A stretch of DNA of 64,000 bases from a bacterium (lineage in GTDB: Bacteria > Bdellovibrionota > Bacteriovoracia > Bacteriovoracales > Bacteriovoracaceae): the NCBI GenBank assembly GCA_030425045.1, contig JAUHVL010000004.1:1-64000 (forward strand), read 5' to 3'. Of the stretch, positions 32,466-43,680 are shown in pieces. The notes under the pieces were generated by a model. It did not search any database. It worked only from the letters and a program-made list of their open reading frames with translations, and was not told the DNA's origin. The translations under genes and the position numbers were made by a program. Within the stretch, counting starts at the first letter, position 1; each line of letters opens with the position of its first letter.

Positions 32466-32786
32466 ATGTTCTTTTTTATAAAGTTTTGTTTGTATTTCAC
32501 TATGAGTTTTTTTATTTTAAGTGTTCCACTAAATAATCAAACTATCTTTGGGTATCTCCATAATATTTCAAAGCCCTACACGTCTAAAGTTTTCAATGTT
32601 GTTTTTGATACCTCTAAGGAAGTGGCCAAAGATACTAGTTCTTGGACTAAAAAGCTCTTCACTAATTCTAAACCTCGTATTGATCAAATCTCTACCAAGC
32701 AGTCCTCGACAGTTAAAGAGGAGATATTACATGAAAGTTATACTGCCGAGGAAAAAGAGCTTCTTTTAAAAATTCTTAAAGATTAA
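32466..32786 (+). CDS. Small protein with N-terminal hydrophobic segment
   Basis: A 106-aa protein with a hydrophobic stretch (about residues 1-25) that may be a signal or anchor, then a polar, Lys/Ser/Thr-rich region ending in a helical EEKELLLKILKD. It starts 2 nt after the receiver-domain gene, so it is probably in that operon, and its last 4 nt overlap the convergent small secreted-protein gene. No family recognised. Confidence 0.6.
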   Translation: MFFFIKFCLYFTMSFFILSVPLNNQTIFGYLHNISKPYTSKVFNVVFDTSKEVAKDTSSWTKKLFTNSKPRIDQISTKQSSTVKEEILHESYTAEEKELLLKILKD

Positions 32787-32995
32787 GTCGTAATTGATCC
32801 TGGTGTTCCACCTTCATCATCACCTAACTCAAGTTCTTCTTGCCCTCTAACGGCGCCCATATCGGTACGGTCACAATCAACATGTTCTTGTGGTCCTAAT
32901 CTGGTTGTTCCCTCATCATCGAGAGATAAATCTCCGACTGCATAAGATGCATTCATCATTAAACATAAACCAATAATAGTAAGAAGCTTTTTCAT
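32783..32995 (-). CDS. Small acidic secreted protein, paralogue 1
   Basis: A 70-aa precursor with a clear signal peptide cleaved after SYA (about residue 19) and a mature acidic chain of about 50 residues rich in Asp, Glu and Gly with one Cys in the motif GPQEHVDCD and the C-terminus TPGSITT. A strong GGAGGG ribosome site precedes the ATG by 3-5 nt. Paralogue 3 (33632-33841) shares GPQ-x3/4-VDCD and TPxSIxx; paralogue 2 (33193-33399) shares the signal end SYAV and an SI-x-x end. It has its own promoter region with a sigma-54-like core. Function unknown; see the finding on a hit-like locus. Confidence 0.8.
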   Translation of the reverse strand: MKKLLTIIGLCLMMNASYAVGDLSLDDEGTTRLGPQEHVDCDRTDMGAVRGQEELELGDDEGGTPGSITT

Positions 32996-33026
32996 ATACC
33001 CTCCAATTGTTTTTCTTATTAATTAG

Positions 33027-33050
33027 AGATGCATAAGAGATGCCAAAAGT
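33027..33050 (-). promoter_or_regulatory. Sigma-54-like promoter of small secreted gene 1
   Basis: On the minus strand TTGGCATCTCTTATGCAT carries the invariant GG (33043-33044) and GC (33031-33032) exactly 10 nt apart, as RpoN promoters require; the -24 side TGGCA matches the consensus fully and the -12 side reads ATGC instead of TTGC. Transcription would start near 33020, about 25 nt before the start codon. The same 20-nt block precedes gene 2. Confidence 0.5.
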
Positions 33051-33126
33051 AGTGACCTTTAATCAGATAGTTAGTGCGATAAATATGTGTAGAAAATATA
33101 TAGGTGTAAAAGGTATGGACGATTTT

Positions 33127-33177
33127 AAAAAAAGTTAAGGGAAGCGAGCGAGTCTATTTTTTCAGCTGGCTCCCCTT
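33127..33177 (-). terminator. Terminator after small secreted gene 2
   Basis: On the minus strand AAGGGGAGC (33169-33177) pairs with GCTTCCCTT (33137-33145) with one G-U pair across a 23-nt loop, and AACTTTTTTT follows. It ends the transcript of gene 2 before the promoter region of gene 1, so the two genes are separate units. Confidence 0.5.
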
Positions 33178-33192
33178 GGGGGGTATTTTTTA

Positions 33193-33399
33193 TTAAGCGT
33201 CTATTGATGAAACATCATTTGTTTCAACAGTTGCATCCTCAGCTTCTGCCTCAATGTATCTTGCTCCACAATGAGTTGCAGTTGTGCTGGCCGCACCGTC
33301 ATGCATTCCTACACCTGTAGCATCTACTGATGCAGGCTCAACAGCGTAAGAAACGTTTACTGCTAAAATAATCATCATAAATACTGCTAGTGTTTTCAT
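33193..33399 (-). CDS. Small acidic secreted protein, paralogue 2
   Basis: A 68-aa precursor: signal peptide ending SYA (about residue 20), then an acidic, Ala/Thr/Glu-rich mature chain of about 48 residues with a single Cys (THCGARY) and the C-terminus VSSIDA. GGAGG lies 5 nt before the ATG. The gene stands between two terminators and has its own sigma-54-like promoter. The mature part has almost no sequence in common with paralogues 1 and 3 except the end, which suggests rapid divergence. Probably exported and disordered. Confidence 0.78.
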   Translation of the reverse strand: MKTLAVFMMIILAVNVSYAVEPASVDATGVGMHDGAASTTATHCGARYIEAEAEDATVETNDVSSIDA

Positions 33400-33442
33400 A
33401 AGTCCTCCAAAAGTTACTTATTTAATTTTAATACTATTTATA

Positions 33443-33463
33443 GATGCATAACTCATGCCAATG
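33443..33463 (-). promoter_or_regulatory. Sigma-54-like promoter of small secreted gene 2
   Basis: The minus strand reads TTGGCATGAGTTATGCAT with GG (33458-33459) and GC (33446-33447) 10 nt apart. It matches the block before gene 1 as TTGGCAT-N3-TTATGCATCT. A further shared box, CTACACA-x-ATTTA followed by CTAACT and CTGA, lies about 25-50 nt further upstream in both copies. Confidence 0.5.
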
Positions 33464-33580
33464 GTGCAAAAGCTATTTCAGTGAGTTAGGGAGTGTAAAT
33501 TTGTGTAGTAATTTTTTAGACGGCTAAAGTTTTGACAGTTTCTTGAATAAGTTCTTGTTTTAATTAAATGGCAAAAAAAA

Positions 33581-33602
33581 GCCCTCTTATTTATAAGAGG
33601 GC
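33581..33602 (-). terminator. Strong terminator after small secreted gene 3
   Basis: GCCCTCTTAT pairs perfectly with ATAAGAGGGC (10 bp, 2-nt loop as drawn) and on the minus strand is followed by TTTTTTTT (33573-33580). A textbook rho-independent terminator located 30 nt after the stop of gene 3. Confidence 0.9.
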
Positions 33603-33631
33603 ATTAAGTAAAATATAATTTCTACTTTTGA

Positions 33632-33841
33632 CTAGTTATTTATCGATGTAGGTGTCTCACCATCAGCACATGCTCTTGGAGAGCCATTTTCGTCAACACA
33701 AGTAGCAACATCTGTTTCAGCTGCCGTCTCTGTATTAATATGATCACAATCGACGTCAGCATCGCTTTGTGGACCTACGTTATCAGCATACACTGAAGTA
33801 ACCAATAACATCGCAAGAAATAATTTTTTTAAATTCTTCAT
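33632..33841 (-). CDS. Small acidic secreted protein, paralogue 3
   Basis: About 69 aa from the ATG at 33841, which has GGAGAAAG just upstream; an ATG 12 nt earlier overlaps that ribosome site and is less likely. Signal peptide ends SVYA (about residue 19). The mature chain is acidic with three Cys (VDCDHIN, ATCVDEN, RACADGE) and the C-terminus TPTSINN. GPQSDADVDCD matches GPQEHVDCD of paralogue 1. It lies 127 nt downstream of the YD-repeat gene; no sigma-54-like core precedes it, so it may be read through from that gene. Confidence 0.78.
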   Translation of the reverse strand: MKNLKKLFLAMLLVTSVYADNVGPQSDADVDCDHINTETAAETDVATCVDENGSPRACADGETPTSINN

Positions 33842-33968
33842 ATCTTTCTCCATTCTCTCTTTTATATACTTAAGTTTACTCCAGTCCCTTTTTTCAACCT
33901 AATTTAAACCCTAGTATCACCTAACTTCTTATAAACCCGTTAGGAGGGATGCCAACTAAACTTGGCAA

Positions 33969-35600
33969 TTACATGTTTAAGTTCACACCTGCTGGCTTAA
34001 CAATCGAAAGTAGTGATTGAAAGGCCTGAGTAACTTGTAATGCCATTTTATGACCTGCTTTTGATTCTACCTTTTTGATTTCACCATAGTTATCGTAGGC
34101 AACGTTAATTTTACCAACTCTTTCCATTGTGATCTCAACAGGCTTTCCAAGAGCATTATATTTAAAAGTTAAAACACGGTTCTTAGCTTTCTTTTTTCCA
34201 CCCTTATCAATCATCTTAAGGATTCTTCCTTTTGAATCATAAATAAGAAGTACTTTTTGGCCTTTGAAGTTTTCTGCACGACTTAAGTTTCCTCTTTTGT
34301 CATACTCAAACTTTGTCCAACCTTTATTGTTAACAACTTTAGTAATTTTATTAAACTTCTTATGGTAATCGAGTTCAACATACTCACCCTTAGTCGATGT
34401 TTTCTTTGTTAACAACCCTTTTTTGTTGTATTCAAAAGTTGTTACGTGCTTACCTCTGGTAATCTTAAGCGGTAGAGAACAACATTCACTATAAATTGTT
34501 TCAGTCCCTACTCCATTAACTGTTGTAACAATTCTGTAGGTGTACTGTGATCCATCAGGACGAGTTTTAATTTCATACTCGTACTTGTTTTCTGACTTCT
34601 TCCCAGACTTTGACACTTTCTTTACTGTTGTCCAATAGTGATACTCAGGGTTCTTTGGATTAGATCCATAGATATACTGTGTTTTCTCACCATTTCTTCC
34701 AACAATTTCCTTAGTGAAGTATGTTTTTGGCTCATAAGAAATTTGCATTTTTGTCTTATCACTATAAGTGATAGACGTCATATTATGTTTGGCATCGTAA
34801 CCGAAATCAAAAGCGTTTCCAGCGACGTCGATCGAGTAAATGAGGTCATCACCCTTATATTTGTAATGTGCTTTCTTTTTCTTATCTTTACCCCAAACAT
34901 ACTTTAATTTACCGTCAGCATACCAATCAAAGAATAGCTGTTTTGCTTGAGAGTCTTTAATCGAAACAAGACGATTGGTCTTGTAGTTTAGATCTACATA
35001 GTAACCATTCTTATGCTTAATTTTTGTGAGCTTTCCGTTTTTATCAAAAAACTCATTCTTTCCATCATTATATTTTCTAGTATAACCATCTTTCGTTACG
35101 TGAACTTCTTGAAGGCCTCTCGTATTTGAATAAAGAACTGTACCTTTAGCAAGATTTGCTTTTACATTAAATCTCTTGGCATAAGCTTGTCTTAATTCAG
35201 CATCATTTTTTAACTTATTAATGAGATCATTAGCTGCTTTTTCACTGATCGTACTTTTCTTTCTCATCTTAGAAACAATCTTCTTAGCAGCAGAGGCAGC
35301 ATCAACAGCCGTTTTTGGCGTAAACCTTGTTAAAGCTCCAGCACCGTTTTCATGAATGATAACTGAGCCATCGGCACCAACCACAAGAAAAGTTTCGTAA
35401 TCACTTCCCCAGCCAAAGCCAAACCAGCCTTTTTTAGTTGATCTCGAGTTAAATGTTCTTGTTATTTCAAGATCATTTCCTCCACCTGGAACAACGATAT
35501 CTGTATAAGAGATATAAAAGTTACCATTTTTTAAGTTCACCCCAGCAAAAACAGAGGCACTGAAAAGAAATAGTAATAGAATTTTTGTCATGGCTTTCAT
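33969..35600 (-). CDS. YD/RHS-repeat secreted protein, WapA-like
   Basis: The 543-aa protein has a signal peptide (about 1-19, ending VFA), an N-terminal RHS-type domain (DUF6531 pattern: NGNFYISYTDIVVPGGG, EITRTFNSRS, GFGWGSDYE) and about ten YD repeats (LTKIKHKNGYYVDLNY, KLKYVWGKDK, FEYDKRGNLSRAENFKGQ, LIYDSKGRILKMIDKGG). It ends soon after the repeats without the RHS core motif or a variable toxin domain. It is 91 nt downstream of the Tad-pilus TadB/C gene. A beta-cage surface or periplasmic protein working with the pilus is plausible; Bd0109 of the Bdellovibrio hit locus is a likely counterpart. Confidence 0.85.
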   Translation of the reverse strand: MKAMTKILLLFLFSASVFAGVNLKNGNFYISYTDIVVPGGGNDLEITRTFNSRSTKKGWFGFGWGSDYETFLVVGADGSVIIHENGAGALTRFTPKTAVDAASAAKKIVSKMRKKSTISEKAANDLINKLKNDAELRQAYAKRFNVKANLAKGTVLYSNTRGLQEVHVTKDGYTRKYNDGKNEFFDKNGKLTKIKHKNGYYVDLNYKTNRLVSIKDSQAKQLFFDWYADGKLKYVWGKDKKKKAHYKYKGDDLIYSIDVAGNAFDFGYDAKHNMTSITYSDKTKMQISYEPKTYFTKEIVGRNGEKTQYIYGSNPKNPEYHYWTTVKKVSKSGKKSENKYEYEIKTRPDGSQYTYRIVTTVNGVGTETIYSECCSLPLKITRGKHVTTFEYNKKGLLTKKTSTKGEYVELDYHKKFNKITKVVNNKGWTKFEYDKRGNLSRAENFKGQKVLLIYDSKGRILKMIDKGGKKKAKNRVLTFKYNALGKPVEITMERVGKINVAYDNYGEIKKVESKAGHKMALQVTQAFQSLLSIVKPAGVNLNM

Positions 35601-35691
35601 ATTTGTTACCTTTATCCCAAATATAGTTCTTATCTACTTTACGGAATTTTATTAAATCACTTTAATAGTTTATTACCCTTTATTATTTTCT

Positions 35692-36588
35692 CTAAATCTT
35701 TATTTTTACGACCTTTTTAATGATTAAGAAGCCTACGGCATCAAGGCCTATCGCTACAAAAAGCATAACAATTCCAAGGGGATGCGAAAAAACACGGGCC
35801 ATCGAGTCCGGATCGTTAGCTGAGTAAACAAGTCCGATTAAAAGTGGCATCAAAGCAATTGTCACACCTTGGAACATCCCTTGAGCTGTAAATGTATCGA
35901 TTTTTTGTTGAAGTCTTATACGTTCACGAATAACCAAAACAATGGTGTCAAAGACTTCTGCAAGGTTACCACCACTTTCTCTTAGAATATTCACACTAGA
36001 AACAAACATATCATTATCTTCTGTCGGTATCCTTTTGCATAAATTATCAAAACATTCTTCAAGTGGGACACCAATTCTATTTTGCTGAAGAATAATATTA
36101 AATTCTTCACTTAAAGGAGCAGGCATTTCGCCAACAACCATGCCTAATGCTTGGGGAACGGATAGACCTGCCCTGATTCCATTTGATAATAATTGAAGAC
36201 CATCAACCATTTGAGACTGATACTTCTGAATTCTCTTTTCTACAAAATAATCGATGACAACTTTCGGAAGTCTAAAGCTAAAAAAGCCAAAGACGAGCCC
36301 CATAATAAAGCCCACGGTCCAATTTAATAAAAGCCCCATAGTGATAACAGTTAAGCCAAGAACAATCAGAGAAAAGGAAGTTAACCACAATGTAATTTTA
36401 TCGGGATCAACAGTAATCATAAGAAACTCAAGTTTCTCCATTAAATATGTTCTCGTTCCTAAAGTTTGATTTTCAATCCATTCAAAAATTAGTTTTGAAT
36501 AGCGAAAGACAAAAATGAAAATAACTAATCCGATGATCGCTGTTAGTGCTGGTCTTCCAATTAGTCCAAATTCACCAATAAAAGTCAT
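35692..36588 (-). CDS. Tad pilus inner-membrane platform protein (TadB/TadC, GspF family)
   Basis: The platform protein couples the ATPase to pilin assembly. The 298-aa sequence has membrane segments near 13-30, 60-95 and 235-295 and the T2SSF domain (QMVDGLQLLSNGIRAGLSVPQALGMV, LRESGGNLAEVFDTI). Classical Tad loci have two such genes (tadB and tadC); only one is in this cluster, so a homodimer or a second gene elsewhere is implied. The start lies 3 nt after the stop of the fused ATPase gene. Confidence 0.9.
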   Translation of the reverse strand: MTFIGEFGLIGRPALTAIIGLVIFIFVFRYSKLIFEWIENQTLGTRTYLMEKLEFLMITVDPDKITLWLTSFSLIVLGLTVITMGLLLNWTVGFIMGLVFGFFSFRLPKVVIDYFVEKRIQKYQSQMVDGLQLLSNGIRAGLSVPQALGMVVGEMPAPLSEEFNIILQQNRIGVPLEECFDNLCKRIPTEDNDMFVSSVNILRESGGNLAEVFDTIVLVIRERIRLQQKIDTFTAQGMFQGVTIALMPLLIGLVYSANDPDSMARVFSHPLGIVMLFVAIGLDAVGFLIIKKVVKIKI

Positions 36589-36591
36589 TAC

Positions 36592-38820
36592 CTAGGCCTT
36601 TCTCTTTTTCTGAACTTGTCCGGGTTTCTTTTGATTAGGGGGTGGTTTTTTTCCAGGAGGCCCAGAAGGTTTATTCCCTGCTGGTGGTGGAGCCGCTGGC
36701 GCCTTAACTTGTCTCGGGTCTGAATTCGTAAACAACCCTCTTGGCACGTTATAACCTTTCTTCTCTAGCGTTTCGATAAATTTAGGGATAAAACCTGTTG
36801 CTTGAAATTCACCTTCAATTTTTCCCGTTTTTCCTATACCTTTTTGTTGAAATAAAAAGATATCCTGTAACACAACAACATCACCTTGCATTCCACCAAG
36901 CTCAGTGATGTGAGTAATTTTTCTTGATCCATCATCTAATCTCGATTGCTGAACAATTAGATGAACTGCTGCTGCAATCATTTCACGAATGGCCTTCGGA
37001 CTTAAACCAGCACCGGCATACTGAACAAGGGTTTCAACACGGCCGATACACTCTCTTGGATTATTAGAGTGAATTGTTGTCATAGAGCCATCATGCCCCG
37101 TACCCATGGCCTGTAACATATCAAGAGTCTCTCCACCACGACACTCACCTACAACAATTCTGTCTGGTCTCATTCTCAGAGTTTGCTTAACGAGTAACCT
37201 AATATCTATTTCTCCATCTCCTTCAAGAGATGGCGGTCTGGTCTCAAGCCTCACAACGTGATCTTGAGGAAAGTTTAGTTCTGCGGAGTCTTCACAAGTA
37301 ATGATTCTTTCATTCGCTTGAATAAAGCCACCCAAAATATTAATCAGAGTTGTTTTACCAGAACCCGTACCACCACTAACAATAATATTTCGATGGGCCT
37401 CAACGGCAATTCTTAAGAAGTCGGCCATATTCTGAGTACAAGAGCCAAACTTAATAAGATCTTTATACGTAAGTCTGTTTTCTGGAAATTTACGAATGGT
37501 GATTGTTGAACCATCTAAGGCACAAGGTGGAATAATCGCATGAACCCTCGATCCATCGGCAAGGCGAGCATCCACATAGGGAGTTTTTTCATCAATACGT
37601 CTTCCGATCGGGGCCACAATTCGTTCGATCACATTTAGAACTTGTCGATCATTTGTAAAAGTAATGGTCGACTTTTTAATTTTTCCACTTAGTTCATAGT
37701 AGATTTTATCTGGGCCAACTACCATAATCTCACTACATTCTTTGTTAGCGAGAAGATCCTCAAGAGGCCCTAGCCCTAATGCTTCATCGATAATCTCTTT
37801 AACAATTTGATTCATGTCATCGCGATTATTGATAATTCCCTTGGTATCTTCTTTATTTAGGAGATCAACGACAGTCTTTTTAGTTTGCTCTTTTAGAATG
37901 ACTTGCGCTTTTGGATCATTATCATCTTGTTTTTTAAAATCCATTTCCTCAACAAGTGCTTTGTGAATTCTATCCTTCAGATCTTTCCAGCCAGCCGCTT
38001 TATTAGAAGCAGCGGCCTTATCTTCACTCTTTCTTGCACCTGAAGTATCAACATTCTTTTTAAGCTTCTCAAGATTTTTAAGCATTCCCTTTTGAATAAT
38101 TTTTCTTGAGAGATCAGTTAATCCCTTTGAGAATGCAGCATTATTATTAAGTTTAAAAACGGCCCTCTTTTTATTTAAGGCCATGATACAGTTTTGATCA
38201 TCTCTTGGAATAATTGAAAAGATTGGCCTACCTAGTGCTTTGGTCATAACATCAGTAGTGATGGGATGACCTTTTTGATACTGATTAGCTACAAAGAAAA
38301 TCATCTCTTTTGGAAACATCATTGTAATTAAATCAGAGTACAATTTCTTCGTTTGATTGATGGCCAAAATATCTGGAACGACAACAATAAAAATTGCCGT
38401 AGTAAACTCTAATGCCTTGGTCGCCAGAGGATTAAGCTCACTTCCTGCATCTATTATCGTCGTGGGATAAATATTAGGAATAGCTTTTAAACTTTTTCCC
38501 AACCCTTCTGCATTGATTTGTTCGGAAACGACGGGATCATTTGGCATACCAATAAAACTCACACCAGATGTATCGGTCGTCACAAAGGACATCATTGATC
38601 GTGGATCAATGGCACCAGGAAAATCCCCTAATTCTTTAATCGTCTTTTTAGAATTGAGACCCGTAATATAGTTTTGGTCTCCACTTGCCTTTTGATCAAA
38701 GTCCATCAAAAGCACTTTGGAGCGAGACTCGGCCGCGTAGGCATATGACAAGTTAGCAGCGACCTGAGATTTTCCCACACCACCTTTTCCACCAATAATG
38801 GTAATGATATGACCGGCCAC
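36592..38820 (-). CDS. tadA: Fused TadZ-like (ParA/MinD) and TadA (CpaF) ATPase
   Basis: One 742-aa reading frame joins two ATPases normally made from separate genes. Residues 1-250 are a ParA/MinD-like domain (GGKGGVGKSQVAANLS, LLMDFDQKASGD), as in TadZ/CpaE, which places Tad machines in the cell; no receiver domain precedes it. After a charged linker (about 250-300), residues 300-690 are the CpaF/TadA secretion ATPase with Walker A SGGTGSGKTTLINIL near 480, Asp box ITCEDSAEL, Walker B RPDRIVVGECRGGE and His box GHDGSMTTIHSNN. A Pro/Lys-rich tail (about 700-742) ends it. The start is GTG overlapping the secretin stop (TAGTG). Confidence 0.92.
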   Translation of the reverse strand: MAGHIITIIGGKGGVGKSQVAANLSYAYAAESRSKVLLMDFDQKASGDQNYITGLNSKKTIKELGDFPGAIDPRSMMSFVTTDTSGVSFIGMPNDPVVSEQINAEGLGKSLKAIPNIYPTTIIDAGSELNPLATKALEFTTAIFIVVVPDILAINQTKKLYSDLITMMFPKEMIFFVANQYQKGHPITTDVMTKALGRPIFSIIPRDDQNCIMALNKKRAVFKLNNNAAFSKGLTDLSRKIIQKGMLKNLEKLKKNVDTSGARKSEDKAAASNKAAGWKDLKDRIHKALVEEMDFKKQDDNDPKAQVILKEQTKKTVVDLLNKEDTKGIINNRDDMNQIVKEIIDEALGLGPLEDLLANKECSEIMVVGPDKIYYELSGKIKKSTITFTNDRQVLNVIERIVAPIGRRIDEKTPYVDARLADGSRVHAIIPPCALDGSTITIRKFPENRLTYKDLIKFGSCTQNMADFLRIAVEAHRNIIVSGGTGSGKTTLINILGGFIQANERIITCEDSAELNFPQDHVVRLETRPPSLEGDGEIDIRLLVKQTLRMRPDRIVVGECRGGETLDMLQAMGTGHDGSMTTIHSNNPRECIGRVETLVQYAGAGLSPKAIREMIAAAVHLIVQQSRLDDGSRKITHITELGGMQGDVVVLQDIFLFQQKGIGKTGKIEGEFQATGFIPKFIETLEKKGYNVPRGLFTNSDPRQVKAPAAPPPAGNKPSGPPGKKPPPNQKKPGQVQKKRKA

Positions 38821-40310
38821 TAACGTCTTCTCCTTCTAAACTTTCTTTTAATCTCATCCGTCCCTTGTGAAGCAGACTCAACAATCTCTGGTGTTACAAA
38901 AACGACAAACTGTGATTTCGAAGTCGTTCGCGCTTTAGATCTAACAAAAGAAAATAACTCACTAGTTGTTTCATCCGTTTCCTGAACACCACCCGGAGGA
39001 TCTTTATCAAAAGCGGTAGCATTTTTGTTCACAACAATACCGCCGACAACTGCGGACTCTTTTGATTTAACAATAATAGCTGTACTAACATCATTTTTTT
39101 GAACCGTAGGTGGATTACCAGTGTTTGCGGAAACACTAATCCCCATAGACAAGTCAATCTTCTCTTCTTGTAAAATTTCTGGCGTGACATCGAGAGTAAA
39201 TCCTGAAGTTGCTTTTTCACCTCGAGTGAACTCTCCCGTACCTAATTCAAAGGGAACCTCATCTTGCTTATTGATTCTAGCTTTAACCTTATCTTTAGTA
39301 ATAACCACACCTGATTGGATAACTCTCGCAAAGCCAGCTGATTTTGCTGAAGTTAATTTAGGAATTAAATTACTAATCACACCTGAGAGGGTCCCACTAG
39401 AACTTGTCGAAAGACCATCATTTGTTGTTCGTCCAAATCTGATGGCCCCTTGTCCTTCACTCAAAAGAGGCTGCCACTTAAAACCAAAAATCTTCTTATA
39501 ATCTTTTGTTAATTCAACAAACTGAGCAGTCACTTTAACGAGTTTTGGAATTGGCTTTGGCTGTTGTTTAGCATTAACCTGAATAAAGTTTTGAATGGGT
39601 GCTTTTTTAACTGTTCGCACAGAGTCTGTTCTCTCGGCAAGACTAGGAATTTGATCCGGGAAAAATGCTGTCGCAATTAGTTCCGCTCTTTGTTTTTCGG
39701 CATCTGATCCAACGATTCCTTCAAGCCAAAACAAATTATTAACCACTCTAACGGTTACATCACGAAGTTGGTTTTTTTGTATTTCTTCTTGCATTTTCTC
39801 TGCAATCAATTTTTGAGTTTGTGGAGAAATCTCTACCAGAAATAAAACTTCTGAGAACTTATCTTGCCTTAATAACGTGACCACTTTTCCGATATCAGCA
39901 GGAACAACAATCTGCCCTCCGACATAAACCGTTTCACCCTTTACACCGATATCCAATCCTTCGACATCACCAAGAAAGTCTTTTAATTCTTTTACAATTT
40001 TAGATTGATCATTTTCTGTAACGATAACAAGGTATCTCGATTTAATATCGCCAACTTTATTTCGAATGATCACAGATGTTCGACCAGGGCGAAGACCAAC
40101 AAACGTCAATTCTGGATTTTTCTTTAAGACCGGATCTATTCTTAAAACTTGAGGATTCCCAATTTGGAACCTTTTATCAGGATCGTAATCAAGAGGAACA
40201 ATTTTATCGATCCCCAAAACGACTTCGATATTTTCTTCAACGACTTTGTCTGCATCTTGAGCAAACGAGATAAAATTAAAACATATAAATAATAAGGCGA
40301 TATATCTCAA
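38820..40310 (-). CDS. cpaC: Tad pilus outer-membrane secretin (CpaC/RcpA)
   Basis: Forms the outer-membrane ring for the pilus. The 496-aa protein has a signal peptide (about 1-17), an N-terminal pilus-formation domain (NPQVLRIDPVLKKNPELTFVGLRPGRTSVII), BON/N-type modules and the secretin domain (VKVTAQFVELTKDYKKIFG, DEVPFELGTG, SGFTLDVTPEI, FVVFVTPEIVE). The start codon is TTG within TTGA, overlapping the cpaB stop; GGAAGG stands 4 nt upstream. Adjacent to CpaB as in other Tad loci. Confidence 0.92.
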   Translation of the reverse strand: MRYIALLFICFNFISFAQDADKVVEENIEVVLGIDKIVPLDYDPDKRFQIGNPQVLRIDPVLKKNPELTFVGLRPGRTSVIIRNKVGDIKSRYLVIVTENDQSKIVKELKDFLGDVEGLDIGVKGETVYVGGQIVVPADIGKVVTLLRQDKFSEVLFLVEISPQTQKLIAEKMQEEIQKNQLRDVTVRVVNNLFWLEGIVGSDAEKQRAELIATAFFPDQIPSLAERTDSVRTVKKAPIQNFIQVNAKQQPKPIPKLVKVTAQFVELTKDYKKIFGFKWQPLLSEGQGAIRFGRTTNDGLSTSSSGTLSGVISNLIPKLTSAKSAGFARVIQSGVVITKDKVKARINKQDEVPFELGTGEFTRGEKATSGFTLDVTPEILQEEKIDLSMGISVSANTGNPPTVQKNDVSTAIIVKSKESAVVGGIVVNKNATAFDKDPPGGVQETDETTSELFSFVRSKARTTSKSQFVVFVTPEIVESASQGTDEIKRKFRRRRR

Positions 40311-41116
40311 TTAGCCTTCCTTTGTGTTGAGAAGAAAGATTTCGCTTCACTAACTTCATCTTCACTTAAAGTGTCATAAACATCTGATGATTTAATTCGT
40401 ACTCGTTTTTGATCATTATTATTTCTAAGAGAGAGATAAGGTCTAAAACCATAAAACTGCTTAAAGAAAATTACTTTTTGAATTTCATAAGGAGTTAATT
40501 CAAGAGTAACAGTATTGTATCGCTCGTAAACAGTGGCCTTCATCGCCTTAATTTCTTTAGGTGTTTTCACTCCATAAATGGGAATAGAATTTGTCATATT
40601 TTTTCCAGTGGAAAGAACGAGTACATCCTGTAAGATAGTTTTTACTTTTCTAAATTCCATCTTTCCCTGGCTATAATCCATCGGACTGACCACATCTATT
40701 CGATCACCAGGTTTTATGAGCTTCCCAACAGCTTGCTGTTCTGTAATATTTATCGAAAACGCTCTTTTCCCGGGACTAACTTGTCTCGATAAACCAGTCT
40801 TTGCTCCGGGGTAGGTCACTCTTGGTTTTGTAATTTGCTCGCCCTTAATAATCGGAACTGTCGTCATTGTATTTTCTAATGCTTTAATATCTTTAAATGA
40901 TCCCGGTTGAATAAATTTTTCTGGAACAGTTACCTGCATAAGTTTTGTTTCATCTAAGAGCTCTAACTCTTTAATATCTCTCTTCGCAACGATAACTGTT
41001 CTTTGAATTCCATAGTTCTTAACGATGACACTTTTTTGATCTTCGATATATGTGTGAACCATAAACATGGCGATACCTGCAATAATTAAGGCAAGAGTAA
41101 ATGCTCTAGTATTCAT
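40307..41116 (-). CDS. cpaB: Tad pilus assembly protein CpaB (RcpC)
   Basis: A 269-aa periplasmic protein with N-terminal anchor (about 5-22), an SAF domain (VIVAKRDIKELELLDETKLMQVTVPEKFI, KGEQITKPRVTYPG) and the C-terminal CpaB domain (SPGKRAFSINITEQQAVGKL, GDRIDVVSPMDYS). It links secretin and inner-membrane parts or controls glycan interaction of the machine. A GGAG ribosome site precedes the ATG. Confidence 0.9.
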   Translation of the reverse strand: MNTRAFTLALIIAGIAMFMVHTYIEDQKSVIVKNYGIQRTVIVAKRDIKELELLDETKLMQVTVPEKFIQPGSFKDIKALENTMTTVPIIKGEQITKPRVTYPGAKTGLSRQVSPGKRAFSINITEQQAVGKLIKPGDRIDVVSPMDYSQGKMEFRKVKTILQDVLVLSTGKNMTNSIPIYGVKTPKEIKAMKATVYERYNTVTLELTPYEIQKVIFFKQFYGFRPYLSLRNNNDQKRVRIKSSDVYDTLSEDEVSEAKSFFSTQRKAN

Positions 41117-41215
41117 AAGGCTCCAATGTCCTGATTTCTTTACAGTTTATTTTATCAAGAGAGTTGATTTGATTTTCCCAAGGGGAACTTTTGACCGTTT
41201 GCTAAATATAGCTGA

Positions 41216-41773
41216 CTAACTTCCTCCGTTACCGAAAGTACAAATGGTATTAGAATGCATTTGCGCCTCAAGTCCCGGAACATATCGATAGGTAGAGTAA
41301 TAGTTTCCAGGACCAGCAGCAAAATAGGTTTCACCACAAAGACCATAAAAATTATAAACTCTGATAAAATTACTTGTGCTTTCCCCTGCTTCTGGCTCGT
41401 CACAGGTTTCTCCGCTATCTCCACCAGCAGTAAAAAATGTTGAGATTTTGTAACAGGGAGCGAAGGAGAAGTTACCACCGTTGGTTGCTTTCTCTCTAAA
41501 TCCAAATGAATACAAACCTGCAACTCGATGACCTTCATCCATCCAGGGATCAAGTGAATTTCTCAAGGGTATCATTGAATTATTTTTAACCGTATACATG
41601 AAGTATCGTCGAGTAAACTTCTGCTGATTGATAGAGCTGTTAATAGCGTTACCAACTTTAATCATAATAGTGAAAAAGAAAATTAAAAAAGGAAGAAAGA
41701 CAATTAGCTCAAATATCGCCTGTCCCTTTTCTCCCTTAACACCCGTTATCGAATAAGGTCGCGTGTACCTCAC
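41216..41773 (-). CDS. TadE-like pseudopilin (third of three)
   Basis: About 185 aa from a GTG that has GAGGAG 6 nt upstream; the frame can be extended to a TTG at 41794 but that ribosome site supports GTG. The N-terminus GEKGQAIFELIVFLPFLIFFF has the G|Q-x3-E prepilin-peptidase motif and a hydrophobic core, and the rest is a soluble domain with several Cys (CYKIST, TCDEPE, GLCGETY, TICTFGNGG). It overlaps the preceding pseudopilin by 38 nt. A minor pilin of the Tad system by position and motif. Confidence 0.8.
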   Translation of the reverse strand: MRYTRPYSITGVKGEKGQAIFELIVFLPFLIFFFTIMIKVGNAINSSINQQKFTRRYFMYTVKNNSMIPLRNSLDPWMDEGHRVAGLYSFGFREKATNGGNFSFAPCYKISTFFTAGGDSGETCDEPEAGESTSNFIRVYNFYGLCGETYFAAGPGNYYSTYRYVPGLEAQMHSNTICTFGNGGS

Positions 41774-42272
41774 AATAATCTCCTCTTCCGGCAACAGGCC
41801 CCATTGCTCGACAAATTCTCAAAAAACATTCCGAACGCATAGGCTCTCGTCCAAGATAAGCATCAGATCTCATCGATAAATCTTGCTTATTACCAAAAAT
41901 TGGCGTTAAAAGAACATCTTCATATTCGGCGAACACTCCAATATAAAGTGCATTTTCTGGTGTATTAAAAGCAGACGGATCGTTGACCTCTAACCTTCCA
42001 TCAAAATCATGTAACAGCTCTGTTAAGTTAAACTTTTGGAAAACAGCTTGTGCTTTTTGTCTTGCAGGTTGATCAATAAAAGCGGGGTCTGAAGCATTAT
42101 TATCGAAGACCATATAACTTCTGCCCGCCATAAAAGTTGCGTAATGAACTAAGTAACCATTGGTATATAAAATTGCAATTTTATAAAACGAAAAGACAAA
42201 GCCTACTGTAATAGCAAAACTTAAAATAAATTCGATAGTTGATTGGCCTTTTTTATTCCGAAGGATAAGCAT
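41736..42272 (-). CDS. TadE-like pseudopilin (second of three)
   Basis: About 178 aa from ATG at 42272 (AGGGAG just upstream); a TTG 39 nt earlier is also open. Class III-type signal NKKGQSTIEFILSFAI, with Gly at -1 and Glu at +5, then an 18-residue hydrophobic helix and a soluble region with paired Cys near the end (ECFLRICRAMG, DYCEVHA). It overlaps its neighbours on both sides. Probably a minor pilin processed by the TadV peptidase encoded in this operon. Confidence 0.8.
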   Translation of the reverse strand: MLILRNKKGQSTIEFILSFAITVGFVFSFYKIAILYTNGYLVHYATFMAGRSYMVFDNNASDPAFIDQPARQKAQAVFQKFNLTELLHDFDGRLEVNDPSAFNTPENALYIGVFAEYEDVLLTPIFGNKQDLSMRSDAYLGREPMRSECFLRICRAMGPVAGRGDYCEVHATLFDNGC

Positions 42273-42528
42273 CTCTCCCTGAAAAAAACCTCGAATTATC
42301 CGGGGAAACAAAAAACCCTGAATGAGGATTATCTTTTGGATCTTCTATATTTAAACCAAAGCGGTAATTGACTTCAATACTTCTCGCGATAGCTGTGAAA
42401 AACGAGGAGTCTTTTCCAAAAAAATCTTGAAAGGCCCTACTTCTAAAAACCCCCATCGCGATGGCAACCACAACCGCAAGGAGTAAAATATACTCTACAA
42501 CAGATTGTCCCTTCCTATCGAGCTTCAA
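42253..42528 (-). CDS. Flp/TadE-like pseudopilin (first of three)
   Basis: About 91 aa. The start chosen is TTG at 42528, forming TTGA with the stop of tadV and preceded by GGAG at 6 nt; a TTG 45 nt upstream lacks a ribosome site. The N-terminus MKLDRKGQSVVEYILLLAVVV has the prepilin G|Q-x3-EY cleavage motif of Flp pilins; the soluble part is about 60 residues (FGKDSSFFTAIARSIEVNY). The extended tail makes it longer than major Flp pilins, so it is likely a minor component. Confidence 0.75.
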   Translation of the reverse strand: MKLDRKGQSVVEYILLLAVVVAIAMGVFRSRAFQDFFGKDSSFFTAIARSIEVNYRFGLNIEDPKDNPHSGFFVSPDNSRFFSGRDAYPSE

Positions 42529-43028
42529 GAATTTCTCCAAATCACAACTCCCATCACGATCCAACTGACACAAATAACGGGAGTATAAGCAAATTTTTTT
42601 CCATAAACAGTTTTAATTAGCTGAACGTTTTTTAAAATTAATGCACTTTTAATTTTATTGAAGTTCATGAAAGTATTGTAAGCAAACAAAATTACCCCGA
42701 CAACAAGGGTTGAATAAGCTAATTGAATAAAGACGAGGTCTTGAGACTCTAGCGGAACGAGGACAAAAAACGATGATAAATACTTCGTGTCACCTGCTCC
42801 CATAATTTTTAAAACAAATAAAAGAAAGCCCACCAAAATAAAAACGGCTGGGTAAATGAATACTTCCCATGTAAGTTTGTAAACATCAGGCAACAAAAGT
42901 AAACAGACTATAAACATCAGGTAATTAACAATAGGCCAAATATTAGAGATCTTTCTGGTTTTAATATCCACGTATGAAATGAACAATAATTGCAAAAGAA
43001 TGATGATATAAATTGAAAGAGGAACCAC
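42525..43028 (-). CDS. tadV: Prepilin peptidase of the Tad system (A24, TadV/CpaA)
   Basis: Cleaves the leader of Flp and pseudopilins at the G|Q site. The 167-aa membrane protein has the two catalytic aspartates: YVDIKTRKISN (first Asp) and MGAGDTKYL (GxGD motif), with about five helices and no methylase domain. The start is GTG with GAGGA upstream, 3 nt after the stop of the second Flp-like gene, whose stop it follows closely. Confidence 0.92.
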   Translation of the reverse strand: MVPLSIYIIILLQLLFISYVDIKTRKISNIWPIVNYLMFIVCLLLLPDVYKLTWEVFIYPAVFILVGFLLFVLKIMGAGDTKYLSSFFVLVPLESQDLVFIQLAYSTLVVGVILFAYNTFMNFNKIKSALILKNVQLIKTVYGKKFAYTPVICVSWIVMGVVIWRNS

Positions 43029-43031
43029 CTA

Positions 43032-43253
43032 TTATTCCTCTGTCTTTACAAAGTTTACATACTGATTTCCCATACAGGCTTTATTGCAAACACCTGTGGA
43101 AAGCTCTTGAGTTAAAAAGAAGTTTAGACTTCCCATACTATTACTGAAAGATTGCCCAAAACCTCTCATCATCGTAACAGCAACAAAGCCAATAAATGCC
43201 AAGATGAATATGTATTCAATTAAAGCTTGCGCTTTATAAGAACTAAGAAACAT
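43032..43253 (-). CDS. Second Flp-like pilin, Ala at -1 of the cleavage site
   Basis: A 73-aa protein with a short N-terminus, then YKAQALIEYIFILAFIGFVAV: the prepilin motif with Q+1 and E+5 but Ala instead of Gly at -1. The hydrophobic helix is followed by a 40-residue tail with two Cys (GVCNKACMG), which may form a disulphide. Shares the fold and size of Flp pilins and is located between flp and tadV. Whether TadV cuts after Ala is unknown; Ala is tolerated by some prepilin peptidases. Confidence 0.78.
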   Translation of the reverse strand: MFLSSYKAQALIEYIFILAFIGFVAVTMMRGFGQSFSNSMGSLNFFLTQELSTGVCNKACMGNQYVNFVKTEE

Positions 43254-43358
43254 GTATTAATTCTATAATACGGCAGGATGCAATGCCACAGAAATATTGT
43301 GGTTACACTTAAGATCTAAATTTTAAGACAGCACTATAATCAAATAATGACGAGAGTA

Positions 43359-43553
43359 TTATTGCCCGTTATTAATCTGATCTACCCATCCTTCAGCACC
43401 ACTGAACACACTGTTCGTAATGTCCGTTAGCTTCTGATCTGCTGTTTTCTTAAACTTAAAAACAATTAAAGCTACAACAGCAACCAGTAGGATGTACTCT
43501 GTAGAAGTCTGTCCTTCTTCGTCCTTTAAATAGGCAAGAATTAAATTTTTCAT
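43359..43553 (-). CDS. flp: Flp-type major pilin
   Basis: About 64 aa from ATG at 43553, with GGAGAAGG immediately upstream (an ATG 12 nt earlier overlaps this site). The precursor has a short leader, cleavage motif EEGQTSTEYILLVAVVALIVF (Gly -1, Glu +5, Tyr +6) and a short polar tail. This is the classic major subunit of Tad (Flp) pili. It heads the cluster, with its own promoter and a structured leader. Confidence 0.93.
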   Translation of the reverse strand: MKNLILAYLKDEEGQTSTEYILLVAVVALIVFKFKKTADQKLTDITNSVFSGAEGWVDQINNGQ

Positions 43554-43586
43554 TACCTTCTCCATTCCAACATTATTAATTCTTGT

Positions 43587-43648
43587 CGGCTTAAGTCTGG
43601 TAAAACTTGAGCCGTTTCACACGAACAAACGTACTTTTTTTACCTGAC
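43587..43648 (-). promoter_or_regulatory. Structured flp leader with alternative pairing
   Basis: In the flp 5' leader CGGCTCAAG (43606-43614, minus strand) pairs with CTTAAGCCG (43587-43595), a 9-bp stem with one G-U pair. Its 10-nt loop contains TTTTACC, which is complementary to GGTAAAA (43638-43644) at the transcript start; on DNA the full repeat is 10 of 11 matching between 43595-43605 and 43638-43648. The leader could form a pseudoknot or two exclusive folds. It lacks the conserved features of c-di-GMP-I riboswitches. Alternatively the repeat is a protein operator over the start site. Confidence 0.45.
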
Positions 43649-43651
43649 TAA

Positions 43652-43680
43652 ATTATACCGCGATTCGAGATGCGGCGCAA
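43652..43680 (-). promoter_or_regulatory. Sigma-70-type promoter of flp
   Basis: On the minus strand a perfect -10 TATAAT (43652-43657) lies 17 nt from TTGCGC (43675-43680, three of six to TTGACA). Transcription would start near 43645, giving a leader of about 90 nt before the flp start codon. Confidence 0.6.

Follow-up and report, generated by a model that had tools for sequence, protein, structure and literature searches.

Organization of the Locus

The stretch of DNA analyzed here (the window; 64,000 nucleotides of contig JAUHVL010000004.1, assembly GCA_030425045.1, Bacteriovoracaceae) carries on its minus strand a Tad pilus operon running from 43553 down to 35692, a gene for an exported YD/Rhs-repeat protein (the YD protein), and three open reading frames (ORFs) for small exported proteins, designated S1, S2, and S3 (Table 1). 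In Bacteriovoracales, this locus corresponds to the hit locus of Bdellovibrio. The initial annotation of the window had placed the Tad genes, the YD gene, and the three small ORFs on one strand, and its coordinates and description are correct. It had also called the Tad operon complete, which is slightly generous: the operon is present, with a single T2SSF gene and without a separate TadC. TadZ and TadA are encoded as a fusion, and the corresponding ORF is long enough for such a fusion (at least 650 amino acids) in 64 of 66 relatives.

The hit locus of Bdellovibrio bacteriovorus (bd0108–bd0119; PMC3818213, PMC4267844, PMC5430801) has the same one-strand order, Flp … TadA–TadB–YD–small exported protein, and the TAD loci of Bdellovibrio and Bacteriovorax have been reported to be syntenic (PMC5430801). 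An effect of mutations in this locus on the dependence on prey is known only for Bdellovibrio. In contrast to B. bacteriovorus, the window has a shorter S1 that is only marginally Bd0108-like, two S2-type genes instead of one, and a TadV, which is absent from Bdellovibrio according to PMC5430801.

Conservation was assessed in 369 genomes of the phylum for the YD protein (matches with E ≤ 1e-10 counted as present), in 120 loci of the phylum for gene neighborhoods (60 from Bacteriovoracales, 30 from Bdellovibrionaceae, and 30 others), and in a second set of 80 named genomes (the named relatives), which was not thinned by genus. A small exported gene lies immediately 3′ of the YD gene at 59/60 Bacteriovoracales, 28/30 Bdellovibrionaceae, and 17/30 other loci, while 45/60, 21/30, and 7/30 of them, respectively, have a small exported gene driven by sigma-54.

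Table 1. Features of the locus in the window
Feature	Coordinates	Strand	Basis and remarks
Flp pilin, 64 amino acids	43359..43553	−	Pfam Flp_Fap, E 3.5e-4 (under gathering score); class III signal EGQTSTEYILL
Second Flp-like pilin	43071..43253	−	Translation; coordinates cover the first 61 codons, ORF extends slightly to TAA
TadV prepilin peptidase	42525..43028	−	Pfam Peptidase_A24, E 5e-7
Minor pilin 1	42253..42573	−	Weak Flp1_like/TadE; in 64/80 named relatives
Minor pilin 2, TadE-like by position	41736..42311	−	In 65/80 named relatives
Minor pilin 3, TadE/G-like by position	41216..41794	−	In 66/80 named relatives
CpaB/RcpC	40307..41116	−	Pfam RcpC, E 1e-21
RcpA/CpaC secretin	38820..40310	−	Pfam Secretin, E 5e-15
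Fused TadZ (MinD/ParA)–TadA (T2SSE ATPase)	36592..38820	−	Pfam CbiA, E 7e-16, and T2SSE, E 3e-59
TadB (T2SSF)	35692..36588	−	Pfam T2SSF, E 4e-16
YD/Rhs-repeat exported protein	33969..35600	−	Pfam RHS_repeat, E 6e-19; DUF6531
S1, small exported protein, 73 amino acids	33632..33853	−	Positional counterpart of Bd0108
Intrinsic terminator after S1	33581..33602	−	Separates S1 from the S2 promoter
Possible degenerate enhancer site 5′ of S2, TGTCAAAACTTTAGCCG	33521..33537	−	7/10 match, weak
Sigma-54 −24/−12 site of S2, TTGGCATGAGTTATGCA	33445..33461	−	Strict pattern match
S2, small exported one-cysteine protein, 68 amino acids	33193..33399	−	Translation, family comparison
Sigma-54 −24/−12 site of S3, TTGGCATCTCTTATGCA	33030..33046	−	Strict pattern match
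S3, second small exported one-cysteine protein, 70 amino acids	32783..32995	−	Translation, family comparison

YD Protein

The YD protein occurs in 344 of the 369 genomes and is nearly single copy. In the Bdellovibrio genomes, its best match has 37–38% identity over ~535 residues (E ~1e-94). One of these genomes, G132, is B. bacteriovorus HD100: the primers of Capeness et al. 2013 (PMC3818213) lie in the locus and the published coordinates agree. The small protein encoded there ends with the published Bd0108 residues 73–101. The YD protein of the window is therefore the orthologue of Bd0109. The initial annotation had likened the protein to Bd0109 and had named conservation of the Tad–YD–small-gene order in other predators as a check; the similarity is confirmed, and the order is kept in other predators.

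The AlphaFold2 model of the YD protein (mean predicted local distance difference test score of 87) adopts a YD-repeat fold that matches Rhs shells and teneurins. The β-strand YD-repeat shell is common to this protein and to the known Rhs/YD shells, i.e., the Rhs effectors of type VI secretion systems, TcC, and teneurins, from which it differs in being about half the size, in its DUF6531-like N-terminal part, and in lacking a C-terminal toxin domain. The protein closes with a conserved helix whose last residues are of GVNL type, and it has no variable C-terminal toxin domain. One genome of the genus Bdellovibrio (G140) has five YD matches, mostly partial, versus one in most genomes.

S1 and Its Relation to Bd0108

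The HD100 ORF at the position of S1 is Bd0108. S1 is probably transcribed together with the pilus operon, and composition predicts disorder in 59 of 76 S1 proteins, that of the window included. The initial annotation had suggested that the three small proteins could be an expansion of Bd0108, a view that has to be revised: S1 alone is the positional counterpart, while S2 and S3 form a separate, sigma-54-controlled family.

Sigma-54 Promoters of S2 and S3

S2 proteins are exported, ~60 amino acids long, and mostly predicted to be disordered, with exactly one cysteine in 62/62 members of one set. In most S2 and S3 genes, a sigma-54 element is located a few tens of bases 5′ of the start codon. 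The criterion for a promoter was a −24/−12 element with GG-N10-GC spacing, which both S2 and S3 of the window have. A strict site precedes 97 of 144 S2-type ORF calls, some of which are spurious, versus none of 76 S1 genes. Across the locus set (1.44 Mb, both strands), 111 strict sites were counted versus 11 in a reversed control, and the bases left free by the search also fit the sigma-54 consensus, with T before TGGC in 84% of cases. In the genome of the window, seven strict sites were found versus none in the reversed control; two of the seven are those of S2 and S3. The rpoN gene is present in 13/13 genomes tested. S2 and S3 would depend on sigma-54 in vivo.

The five other strict sites in this genome lie at C2:91292, C7:1252, C72:141375, C72:211683, and C82:32700; four precede exported-looking proteins and one (C7) a membrane enzyme, which suggests a cell-surface regulon under sigma-54. 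No S2-family copies were found elsewhere in the same genome beyond matches to the signal peptide. At four loci of other families (L095, L103, L104, and L106), the first small gene after the YD gene itself carries a sigma-54 site. In several Halobacteriovorax-type genomes (L125, L126, L129, L134, L135, L139, and L197), an ORF of 459–478 amino acids, aldehyde dehydrogenase-like by eye, lies between S2 and S3, ~770–2260 bases after the YD gene; the S genes are thus not always adjacent.

A palindrome, TGTCTAAA-N-TTTAGACA (TGTCT-N7-AGACA), precedes 73 of 99 S2-type promoters of Bacteriovoracales versus 6.7 in shuffles. Its spacing is strictly seven, with spacings of six and eight giving only 4 and 3 occurrences, and the Bdellovibrionaceae version, TGTCTCA-N3-TGAGACA, has the same outer architecture. 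This pattern suggests a single class of sigma-54 activator. Neither in the flanks retrieved nor in the window was a linked gene for such an activator found; the genome of the window has ~10 sigma-54 activator genes.

The HD100 S2 Gene and the Published Small RNA

Downstream of the YD gene, the hit locus of HD100 also has a sigma-54-driven S2 gene, which was previously unrecognized. Capeness et al. (PMC3818213) described a 261-bp small non-coding RNA at HD100 positions 96455–96716 that is strongly raised in bd0108 mutants, but neither in wild-type cells nor in a host-independent strain whose bd0108 is intact; they proposed that the growth switch involves a small RNA (sRNA) pathway. The HD100 S2 ORF (96683–96483, 66 amino acids) lies inside this transcript, both of the published reverse transcription PCR primers fall within the ORF, and the transcription start predicted from the HD100 sigma-54 element is 96732.

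The ratio of nonsynonymous to synonymous change (pN/pS) of S2 is 0.00–0.02 in two pairs of close Bdellovibrio species, with synonymous:nonsynonymous counts of 15:0 and 12:1, and a Shine-Dalgarno sequence precedes 23 of 27 Bdellovibrionaceae S2-type genes versus a background of 8%. Because of this strong purifying selection and the Shine-Dalgarno sequences, the HD100 S2 ORF is, judging from its pattern of substitution and its translation signals, protein-coding, and the published RNA is an mRNA, that is, not, or not only, non-coding. A non-coding RNA would be marked by the lack of a conserved reading frame; that of S2 is conserved across the phylum. At this place, Rfam gave no match at the gathering threshold in the loci L032, L001, and L135. 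In Halobacteriovorax marinus, a 6S RNA (L135:1582-1777, minus strand) lies ~8 kb 5′ of the YD gene.

Shared C-Terminal Tails

Within a genome, S1 and S2 resemble each other in their last four residues far more than between genomes. With one locus per genus (38 genera), the mean BLOSUM score is 4.5 within genomes versus −0.8 between them (z = 8.3, 0/2000 shuffles), and residues −5 to −20 show no effect. For the named set, not thinned by genus, z is 9.9 for S1–S2, 8.2 for S1–S3, and 11.6 for S2–S3, and no tail correspondence was found there with 11 Tad and YD proteins (z within ~2.4). Independent sister pairs favor matching for S1–S2 (19:4, p = 0.0013) and S1–S3 (11:3, p = 0.03). Bdellovibrio S2 also aligns to the C-terminal half of Bd0108 with an HHalign score of 18.8, versus a maximum of 11.2 in 120 column shuffles, at a low HHalign probability.

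Proposed Mechanism

Published work on Bd0108 bears on how these proteins might operate. Residues 24–66 of Bd0108 bind Bd0109 weakly and residues 85–101 are highly mobile (PMC4267844), while frameshifts and a 42-bp deletion in host-independent strains remove or alter the residues after ~70 (PMC3818213). Computed support covers the orthology of the YD protein, the conserved gene order, the promoters, the enhancer motif, the coding nature of S2, and the matching of the tails. We infer a feedback route, a competition between peptides, a reader of the tails, and any role in the growth switch. S1 would be made along with the pilus machine and would hold the YD shell weakly by its N-terminal part. 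Because of the published binding, mobility, and mutant data together with the tail result, the free C-terminal half of S1, with its cysteine and tail, is proposed to be read by a further partner. Loss of S1 or an altered pilus state would lead a sigma-54 activator to switch on S2 and S3, which would bring a cysteine and a tail and, in Bdellovibrio, no YD-binding N-terminal part. As feedback-induced exported peptides, S2 and S3 may then compete with, or stand in for, the Bd0108-type S1 at the tail-reading partner. This explanation as a whole, comprising a hit-type locus, competition or substitution between S1 and S2, sigma-54 feedback, and a tail reader, has about an even chance of being correct.

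A bolder form of the scheme would have S1 and the sigma-54-induced S2 and S3 constitute a genome-specific peptide recognition system, in which all present the same changing tag to one receptor and the feedback-set ratio of S1 to S2 decides between predatory and prey-independent growth. If so, the sRNA proposed for the switch would serve as the mRNA for the second ligand of this system; this form is considered improbable.

Several points weigh against this explanation. All results obtained here are computational, and the link between loss of Bd0108 and induction of S2 comes from one published study. Homology among the small proteins is marginal: HHalign of the mature parts of S1 and Bd0108 gives a probability of 2% at E = 0.025, with a score exceeding those of all 120 column shuffles, and the S1–S2 comparison gives 17%. 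Direct homology of the window S1 to Bd0108 is not established. A recognized sigma-54-driven gene is missing at about a quarter of the Bacteriovoracales and Bdellovibrionaceae loci, and the enhancer match of the window itself is weak (7/10). The tail effect is modest inside Bdellovibrionaceae (z = 2.3), the sister pairs of S2–S3 (9:3, p = 0.07) are not significant, and the tails of the window, SINN (S1), SIDA (S2), and SITT (S3), agree at only two positions. Partial Mantel tests of the locus also gave no partner of the tails, with no coevolution of the YD protein (partial r −0.008) and none convincing of other Tad proteins (eleven proteins tested). The single Mantel signal (partial r −0.21, permutation p 0.002) is that of TadZ–TadA, a protein predicted to be cytosolic.

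Alternative Explanations

The transcript 3′ of bd0108 may work as a regulatory small RNA to which the ORF is incidental or secondary, as its original description and its proposed role in the growth switch would have it. Nonetheless, the frame is under strong purifying selection, it encodes a signal peptide and is preceded by a Shine-Dalgarno sequence, the same gene recurs across the phylum, and Rfam offers no match in the loci searched, which leaves this explanation very unlikely; a dual-function RNA, both coding and regulatory, is possible. The likeness of the tails could likewise be devoid of functional meaning and reflect gene conversion or recent duplication, since S2 and S3 are paralogues and nearly identical in some genomes (L008). 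However, shared tail residues use the same codon in 45 of 90 cases, where codon bias predicts 38.2 ± 4.5. Because this agreement is little above that expectation, gene conversion is an unlikely source of the matching and was rejected on codon use; the 3′ flanks are moreover 31% identical, and with one locus per genus S1 and S2 show no likeness at positions −5 to −20. The probability left for this origin is slight, lower than that of a regulatory RNA. Least probable of all, to the point of near dismissal, is an Rhs toxin with small immunity proteins. The Rhs fold and the small downstream genes recall such systems, but the YD protein ends in its conserved helix and GVNL-type tail and not in a variable toxin domain, the small proteins are exported and unstructured, and the YD protein is nearly single copy across the phylum; this candidate was rejected.

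Two further explanations, both doubtful yet less so than those above, assign the tails a function. In one, they form a secreted, genome-specific peptide signal that is processed or displayed, is sensed by a receptor of the same lineage, and reports self versus non-self or predator density. Tails that turn over among close relatives while S1, S2, and S3 change in step, the export signals, and the unstructured sequence are in keeping with such a signal, whereas no receptor or processing site has been identified, Bd0108 localizes to the periplasm in E. coli, and tails from different genomes fit a loose consensus, which a common reader would predict. In the other, S2 and S3 serve the Tad pilus itself as accessory subunits, chaperones, or cargo, with the tail acting as a sorting mark for that machine. 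S2 and S3 do always adjoin the Tad operon, and the genome of the window has no other S2-family copy, but their signal is of Sec type and not a pilin-type leader, they are under separate sigma-54 control, and the pilins and export proteins show neither tail correspondence nor convincing coevolution.

Relation to Previous Work and Significance

A homologue of Bd0109 was reported in 2014 in Halobacteriovorax marinus SJ (BMS_0182/0183/0184) together with two small signal-peptide neighbors, which were judged unrelated to Bd0108 (PMC4267844). To call the arrangement undescribed, as the initial annotation did, is therefore too strong. The Halobacteriovorax loci L015 and L135 have the same S1 and S2 arrangement as the window; promoters, shared tails, and the Bdellovibrio counterpart went unreported in the H. 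marinus description. Sigma-54 control, the enhancer-like site, the identity of S2 with the HD100 “non-coding RNA,” and the shared tails appear to be new, and none of them was found in the literature searched. A search for bd0108 together with sRNA returned only the 2013 Capeness paper, and one for rpoN and the hit locus gave nothing relevant at title level.

It has long been asked how Bdellovibrio escapes its dependence on prey once Bd0108 is lost. The one transcript tied to that loss, once seen as a regulatory RNA, is recognized here as a conserved gene for an exported peptide that has a sigma-54 promoter and a site resembling an enhancer, and the switch is therefore testable by simple genetics. 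The arrangement spans the phylum and occurs also in predators without a recognized Bd0108.

Flanking Genes

Between 29416 and 32786 of the window, the genes for a Lon protease, a CheY-like response regulator, and a membrane protein of 106 amino acids run convergently into S3. The same trio lies downstream of the S genes in the relatives inspected.

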